The notes beneath the pieces are model-generated. The model made no database searches, was not told the origin of the DNA, and saw only the letters and a list, made by a program, of their open reading frames with translations. The position numbers and the translations under genes were made by a program. From positions 1-28,590 of the IMG/VR virus record IMGVR_UViG_3300044655_001613: 28,590 nt of DNA, one strand, 5' to 3'. Below, piece after piece: positions 26,821-27,595 of this stretch; positions within the stretch are counted from its first letter, which is position 1, and the number at the start of each line of letters is the position of its first letter. Source of the DNA: a virus.

Positions 26821-26843
26821 TAAAAAAGGGCATTTCTGCCCTT
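26821..26843 (-). terminator. Terminator at the convergent junction, U-run on minus strand
   Basis: AAGGGCA-TTTC-TGCCCTT is a 7-bp stem. On the minus strand it reads AAGGGCAGAAATGCCCTTTTTT, a textbook intrinsic terminator for the leftward genes; on the plus strand the hairpin is followed by AATTAAT only, so it could still weakly stop the rightward genes. Confidence 0.85.
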
Positions 26844-26897: not shown

Positions 26898-26969
26898 CTA
26901 TTTATTCATTACATACATAGTTACTTCAAATCCAAATCTCATTTCAGTAGCTGCTGGAGTTGTCCACAT
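26898..26969 (-). CDS. pqqA: PqqA-like PQQ precursor peptide
   Basis: A 23-residue gene in the gap between lysis genes and the 2OG oxygenase. On the minus strand ATG is at 26969-26967 and TAG at 26900-26898. The peptide starts MWTTPAATEMRF and continues GFEVTMYVMNK. The W-x-x-P N-terminus, the G-F-E-V-T-M-Y core and the basic C-terminus match bacterial PqqA (for example MWxKPAxxDLRxGxEVTxY in known sequences). Glu15 and Tyr19, spaced by three residues, are those that PqqE crosslinks and that become pyrroloquinoline quinone. A Shine-Dalgarno AAAGGA lies at 26983-26978, 8 bases upstream. Genes for PqqB, C, D or E are not in the window, so host enzymes would have to process it. It is the last gene before a strong leftward terminator. 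Confidence 0.88.
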   Translation of the reverse strand: MWTTPAATEMRFGFEVTMYVMNK

Positions 26970-26987
26970 AATATTTGTCCTTTATCT

Positions 26988-27011
26988 GTAACAAGCAAAA
27001 TTACTTGTTAC
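26988..27011 (-). promoter_or_regulatory. Inverted repeat in the pqqA 5' leader
   Basis: GTAACAAG and CTTGTTAC form a perfect 8-bp stem around an 8-base loop, ending four bases before the AAAGGA Shine-Dalgarno of pqqA. There is no U-run, so it is not a standard terminator. It could be an operator, an RNA processing site that separates pqqA from the upstream oxygenase gene, or an mRNA stabiliser. Confidence 0.5.
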
Positions 27012-27055
27012 GCAAATTATGGCTTTTTTGCAAGACAAAACCATCAAGAAAATCA

Positions 27056-27595
27056 TTAATTATTCTTTACCTGTAAAACGCAATTAATCACAATTCTATT
27101 TACATGATCTTTAGGTGGAGTTGCGTTATGAAACACATTAGATTTAAACCATGCACAGTTTCCAGCTTTAGGTTTAATTCTTTCCACAACTTCAGTTTTA
27201 TCTTTGTTATAAATAATAGTATCGCCATCTGAATCATTAACATAATAAATAAAAGTTACAAAGTCATCTTTAGTAAGCTCAACATCTGTGTGAACCGCTA
27301 GTTTATTTTGCTCTTCAGTCAATATTCTTTGCGTCATCATATTTATTTTAATTCTATAAATATTAGTTATTTCAAATCCTGTGTGCATTTCAAAAAAATA
27401 CAATAAAGGTTTAATCTTTTCAAAGTGTTCGCTTGTATATCCATATTCATTTTTAATAACATGAACTAATTGAAATATACCGTCTTGGCCTTCGTAGGTA
27501 GAATTCTTATTGAAGAACCATGCAAAATTGACATGATCTATTAAATTCTGCAATAAAACCTTAAAGGAATCAGGAATAAACTTTTCAATCAACAT
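27056..27595 (-). CDS. 2OG-Fe(II) oxygenase-like protein
   Basis: 179 residues. The double-stranded beta-helix iron site is complete: HTD (His102, Asp104), a distal His156 in VFHNATPP, and Arg167 in NRIVINCVLQ, which would bind the 2-oxoglutarate carboxylate. Between them lie FVTFIYYVNDSDGDTIIYN and KAGNCAWF, the usual G-x-T-x-I-Y strand. Family members hydroxylate proteins, nucleic acids or small molecules; the substrate is not evident. Similar phage enzymes are known from T4-like cyanophages. It overlaps the preceding DUF6378 gene by 11 bases and ends 87 bases upstream of pqqA, so it is the closest upstream gene of the pqqA transcript. Its start is the first ATG after the overlap. Confidence 0.88.
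   Translation of the reverse strand: MLIEKFIPDSFKVLLQNLIDHVNFAWFFNKNSTYEGQDGIFQLVHVIKNEYGYTSEHFEKIKPLLYFFEMHTGFEITNIYRIKINMMTQRILTEEQNKLAVHTDVELTKDDFVTFIYYVNDSDGDTIIYNKDKTEVVERIKPKAGNCAWFKSNVFHNATPPKDHVNRIVINCVLQVKNN

Follow-up and report, generated by a model that had tools for sequence, protein, structure and literature searches.

A 23-codon pqqA gene with a host-type upstream element in a P22-like phage, and its counterparts in other phages of methylotrophs

A phage-borne pqqA gene has been published before, in the Lake Baikal virus population VP_266 (PMC7678222, 2020); no promoter analysis of phage pqqA was found in the accessible part of that paper. More recently, pqqA, pqqD and pqqE appear, in the available portion of PMC13188868 (2026), in a list of virus-encoded genes from reservoir sediments. 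PQQ is not mentioned in the papers describing the methylophages MEP301 and MEP401/402, and it appears in the Melnitz paper only as a medium supplement. The Methylophilaceae (OM43, Ca. Methylopumilus) are abundant methanol oxidisers of coasts and lakes, and hosts are described as having 3-12 pqqA copies against one pqqBCDE set (PMC4109929).

The window, i.e. the whole stretch of DNA analysed here, corresponds to one whole IMG/VR virus record (28,590 bases); the genome it represents is probably incomplete. The gene content is that of a P22-like podovirus: SSB, NinB, NinG, ParB/methyltransferase, terminase, P22 portal, scaffold, P22 coat, ejection proteins and tail fibre, with an M15 endolysin, this series lying on the plus strand. 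A minus-strand series comprising an exonuclease-like gene, an SprT-like gene, a DUF6378 gene and a 2OG-Fe(II) oxygenase gene ends in pqqA. An Rfam scan of the window returned no known RNA family. As P22-like structural genes extend across the window and pqqA is also found in the genomes of isolate phages, the window is a P22-like phage and pqqA resides inside a genuine phage genome, not in a host flank. The features of the locus, in the direction of transcription, are:

27056..27595, minus strand: upstream neighbour, 2OG-Fe(II) oxygenase-type protein (Pfam PF13640, 40.6 bits)
27043..27060, minus strand: host-type pqqA element ATTAATGATTTTCTTGAT, a degenerate copy of the palindrome TMATGA-WWW-TCATKA and putative activator site centred near -42 (de novo motif)
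27016..27021, minus strand: CATAAT, predicted -10 box; the element starts exactly 39 bp away (position from sequence)
26988..27011, minus strand: predicted 5'-terminal stem-loop of the pqqA mRNA, GTAACAAG-TAATTTTG-CTTGTTAC (RNA fold)
26978..26983, minus strand: Shine-Dalgarno sequence AAAGGA, 8 bases 5' of the start codon
26898..26969, minus strand: pqqA, 23-codon gene of the PQQ precursor peptide, MWTTPAATEMRFGFEVTMYVMNK plus stop (translation; PF08042, TIGR02107; same peptide in P19250A and many Methylophilaceae)
26826..26843, minus strand: intrinsic terminator 3' of pqqA, AAGGGCAGAAATGCCCTT and then a T run (terminator scan, one found against 0.3 in shuffles; fold)

PqqE crosslinks the Glu and Tyr residues of an E-x-x-x-Y core in PqqA. 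The 72 bases of pqqA, translated on the minus strand, yield a peptide in which W2-x-x-P5, Glu15 and Tyr19 are all present; the plus-strand reading was rejected, as it encodes an unrelated peptide. Both curated profiles match the peptide at about twice their cut-offs, Pfam PF08042 with 40.3 bits (curated cut-off 21.1, E=3e-10) and NCBIfam TIGR02107 (PQQ_syn_pqqA) with 38.8 bits (curated cut-off 20, E=5.6e-10). The original prediction, which had named a PqqA ORF with W-x-x-P and the Glu/Tyr core and had proposed a PqqA profile as a check, agrees with the translation and with these scores; its description of 26898-26969 was right in content and lacked the strand, the ORF being on the minus one. 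The Shine-Dalgarno sequence it had claimed is present as AAAGGA at 26983-26978, and pqqA is a short stand-alone gene with its own start and ribosome site, as is typical of the PqqA class (about 22-30 codons).

The peptide is that of a known family of hosts. A genome scan with the pattern EMRFGFEVTMYV returned at least 120 genome stretches, and the titles among the matches listed were Methylotenera, Methylophilus, Methylobacillus, Methylovorus, Methylopumilus and OM43, along with compatible unresolved MAGs. Since the exact peptide of the window is the commonest PqqA of the Methylophilaceae (56 of about 130 among the matches listed), the host of the phage very probably belongs to this family, in keeping with the PQQ-producing and plausibly methylotrophic host that had been proposed. 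The GFEVTMY core pattern was present in 185 of 187 Methylophilaceae genomes, mostly in 2-12 copies each, and a reversed control pattern had zero matches in the same genomes; these counts agree with the copy numbers in the literature (PMC4109929). Given its identity with host PqqA, the peptide would very likely be converted to PQQ by PqqB-E.

With its own terminator and its own predicted promoter, pqqA looks like a one-gene transcription unit. The stem formed by GTAACAAG and CTTGTTAC starts at the predicted 5' end of the window mRNA. The 5' leaders of pqqA fold better than dinucleotide shuffles (mean z of -2.2 for the 72 leaders from phages and -1.9 for the 108 from hosts, start sites being predicted), and the sequences that form the stem differ. 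The simplest reading is that the 5' hairpin may protect a very abundant short mRNA. At the other end of the transcript, the end of pqqA and its trailer (26930-26880, minus strand) are predicted by the mRNA fold to pair into a long stem, AUUUGAAGUAACUAU / AUAGUUAUUUUAAAU.

The same DNA element stands upstream of phage and host pqqA. An EM script, run on the upstream regions of each set by itself, returned the motifs [AT]TTmATGATTTT[AC][CT]nTA[GT] in 84% of 115 phage regions and TCATGA-www-TC[AC]T[GT]AG in 95% of 124 host regions, motifs of the same palindrome family, in a comparison affected by the partial relatedness of phage and host sequences by descent. The likelihood of these motifs is about tenfold that of shuffled input. 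Of 122 phage loci scored with a matrix trained on hosts, 57 have the pqqA site as their best match, against an expectation of 1.3. The window element, the right half-site of which is degenerate, ranks fifth in the window with that matrix; with the phage matrix, whose training set included the window, it outscores every other site there (21.6, the runner-up having 12.7). Measured from the first base of the motif, the -10 box lies 38-40 bp away in 38 of 75 phages (mode 39 bp) and 61-63 bp away in 51 of 79 hosts; in the 24-column host motif a second half-site lies 23 bp nearer the -10 box, i.e. at 39 bp. The element was not found at enterobacterial- or Methylobacterium-type pqqA, which came out of one scan together with the GMEITAY phage genes described below and served as negative controls, and the matrix scan gave no good match to it at the pqqA of MEP401/402.

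An activator that overlaps the -35 region classically sits near -41.5 (class II activation). With its start 39 bp ahead of the -10 box, the window element has its centre near -42, and from this geometry we propose a putative class II activator-type role for it. A generic sigma-70 consensus scan missed the pqqA promoter of the window; its -35 box is poor, as expected if transcription is activator-dependent. Six Methylophilaceae genomes were searched for the exact palindrome TMATGAWWWTCATKA; five have 1-3 copies each and the sixth has none (host loci L298-L310). Of the 13 sites, 8 precede pqqA and one precedes pqqB, the palindrome apparently being an undescribed pqq operator of the hosts. No published account of an element upstream of pqqA was found in the literature searched, the scope of which lay outside subscription journals.

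Unannotated homologues had been thought likely in related phages, and tblastn against 50,697 phage records detected the peptide in nine records of cultured methylophages (P19250A, Venkman, MEP301, MEP401/402 and four of Melnitz) and in the environmental podovirus ctXG6705, with no pqqA annotation in any of these that were inspected; for Melnitz and ctXG6705 the annotation has an opposite-strand ORF in its place. The accessible part of PMC7678222 says that P19250A, a phage of Methylophilaceae, encodes none of these genes; contrary to this, P19250A carries an unannotated pqqA whose peptide is identical to that of the window (tblastn, E=5e-8). An IMG/VR scan with the GFEVTMY core returned at least 120 stretches, and all 120 listed decode as stand-alone PqqA-type ORFs; a second scan, in which residues 14-23 were left free, likewise returned at least 120. 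The gene is spread over very different phages (the P22-like window, P19250A, Zobellviridae, Kyanoviridae), and single-linkage grouping of the neighbourhoods was rejected as a way to count lineages, as it merges 174 of 211 loci via common phage genes.

In none of 95 pqqA-bearing virus records did PqqE reach its cut-off. As many of the records are fragments, a single absence carries little weight, but the total is telling. This supports the precursor-only supply originally suggested, in which phages provide the PqqA substrate alone. We consider it likely that pqqA of the window is a self-contained phage unit under host-like control that feeds host PQQ synthesis. The unit would consist of an activator-type site, a -10 box 39 bp on, a 5' hairpin, a Shine-Dalgarno sequence, the 23-codon pqqA and a terminator. 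During infection, host RNA polymerase would transcribe it with the aid of a putative host activator of pqqA, the peptide would be turned into PQQ by PqqD/PqqE and the other Pqq enzymes of the host, and PQQ would go to the methanol dehydrogenases of the host, sustaining methanol oxidation and the ribulose-monophosphate carbon flow. Because one PqqA is consumed per PQQ, extra copies of the substrate gene can by themselves raise PQQ supply, and the hosts themselves adopt this solution, with many pqqA and one pqqBCDE set. We infer activator binding, transcription, processing and the metabolic effect from the DNA; PQQ output or methanol oxidation may be raised in infected cells.

The absence of PqqE from these records would also fit a peptide that acts as a brake, binding PqqD/PqqE or flooding peptidases so that PQQ falls, or operator copies that titrate a host regulator: phages often shut off host functions, and replication of the phage genome would multiply pqqA sites. 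We hold this to be unlikely, since a titrating site needs no coding sequence and a decoy is expected to lose its reactive residues, whereas all substrate residues, Glu15 and Tyr19 included, are strongly selected and the peptide is often identical to host PqqA. Glu15, Thr17, Tyr19 and Asn22 are invariant in 123 loci (120 of them unbiased) among the matches listed to the search in which codons 14-23 were free; over these codons pN is 0.063 against a pS of 0.768 (pN/pS 0.08), and the entropy at codon positions 1, 2 and 3 of viral pqqA is 0.19, 0.13 and 0.98 bits, again among the matches listed. The viral PqqA peptide is held by purifying selection.

A PQQ-dependent dehydrogenase accompanies pqqA in 1 of 50 virus records, and methanol dehydrogenase was rejected as the usual companion of the gene. 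The one 72-kb virus record L051 carries pqqA together with a PQQ-dependent alcohol dehydrogenase above the NCBIfam cut-off, like VP_266 of Lake Baikal. That so few pqqA phages encode a PQQ enzyme would be compatible with another use of PQQ or of modified PqqA in place of methanol oxidation, be it redox protection, signalling or release to neighbours; this we regard as rather improbable, the hosts being methylotrophs in which the main known PQQ users are methanol dehydrogenases (PMC4109929 and established knowledge).

A gene acquired from the host together with its promoter might be a passenger that brings the phage no benefit; identity to host PqqA and a promoter element common to both are what such a passenger would display. 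The silent sites of viral pqqA are, however, near saturation while the peptide is conserved, the gene turns up in phages of very different kinds, the spacing of the element has stayed fixed although the flanks have diverged, and the codon choice of the phages is unlike that of the hosts, all of which makes a passenger very unlikely. Of 111 viral genes, 36 encode Arg11 by AGA, as against a single one of 112 host genes, a bias which indicates that phage pqqA genes were not freshly copied from hosts and have long resided in phages.

Some matches were set apart from the phage genes. Enterobacterial-type PqqA (MWKKPAF.D.RLGLEVTLYISNR) occurs near contig ends (L258, L261, L266, L268, L269, L272, L275, L280, L286, L287, L290); several lie on 38-42-kb contigs that have lambda-like tail genes, at about 400-500 bp from the contig end. 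This arrangement suggests prophages integrated beside pqqA, perhaps at a recurrent attachment site; those in contigs of about 40 kb were set aside as probable prophage flanks, L290 beginning with part of an apparent TonB-receptor gene before pqqA. 'Acinetobacter phage MD-2021a' (L009, CAKLQF020000010.1) was rejected as a phage pqqA because the record is a bacterial chromosome, with pqqBCDE adjoining pqqA and with ppk and fur, and it is apparently mislabelled. More divergent PqqA peptides are found in the virus contigs L012, L021, L026, L032, L033, L036 and L087, some of which may come from phages of other PQQ producers; the matrix scan did not find the Methylophilaceae element at L021. That the virus contigs are mislabelled host DNA, and pqqA simply a host gene, is scarcely credible. 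IMG/VR can include host flanks, and the enterobacterial-type contigs and the Acinetobacter record would fit such a reading, but phage structural genes fill the window, and the presence of pqqA in the genomes of cultured phages already contradicts it.

About twenty virus contigs (L252-L255, L257, L259, L263, L264, L267, L273, L274, L277-L279, L282, L285, L289, L292, L294-L297) encode peptides of the type MWTxPxATExRxGMEITAYVMNR, which also score above the PqqA cut-off. The GMEITAY core pattern was found in none of the 187 Methylophilaceae genomes, where the GFEVTMY core is nearly universal, and it appears to be a phage-only core within the genomes sampled, host genes beyond the sample being possible. 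At these phage genes, held out of the training, the element has rank 1 in nearly all. A wider proposal, which we advance tentatively and do not quite favour in its entirety, is that phages of methylotrophs carry as a guild a substrate-only pqqA cassette, plugged via a copied operator into an undescribed host pqqA regulon, some having evolved the GMEITAY core, through which PqqA might evade the host's control of PQQ synthesis or be better suited to host PqqE.

If many methylophage lineages do bring a host-wired pqqA, cofactor supply is probably a bottleneck of infection, and viruses would influence methanol turnover via a 23-residue peptide overlooked by gene callers. The shared element exposes a DNA site, and hence a regulator, of PQQ synthesis in the hosts. 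Cultured phage-host pairs exist for methylophage pqqA.

Compared with pqqA of the host Methylophilaceae, that of the window has the identical peptide, and the upstream palindrome and the tendency to a leader hairpin are common to both; the host gene is multi-copy and has its site mostly at 61-63 bp with the second half-site at 39 bp, whereas most phages keep the 39-bp position only. The cultured methylophages P19250A, Venkman, MEP301, MEP401/402 and Melnitz each have a stand-alone pqqA, as in the window, but belong to other phage groups with other gene neighbourhoods, and the pqqA of Melnitz is overlapped by a wrong-strand ORF. VP_266, as the accessible part of PMC7678222 presents it, is a Methylophilaceae virus with an annotated pqqA for which a boost of methanol oxidation was proposed, as it is here for the window; it differs in being a single case and a T4-like contig that also encodes methanol dehydrogenase, the window being P22-like. 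PMC13188868 treats viral pqqA, in the portion available, as a phosphate-solubilisation gene, with no methylotroph link or regulation discussed there. Phage pqqA is already known as a kind; its breadth among phages, its regulatory wiring and the phage-only core appear to be new.
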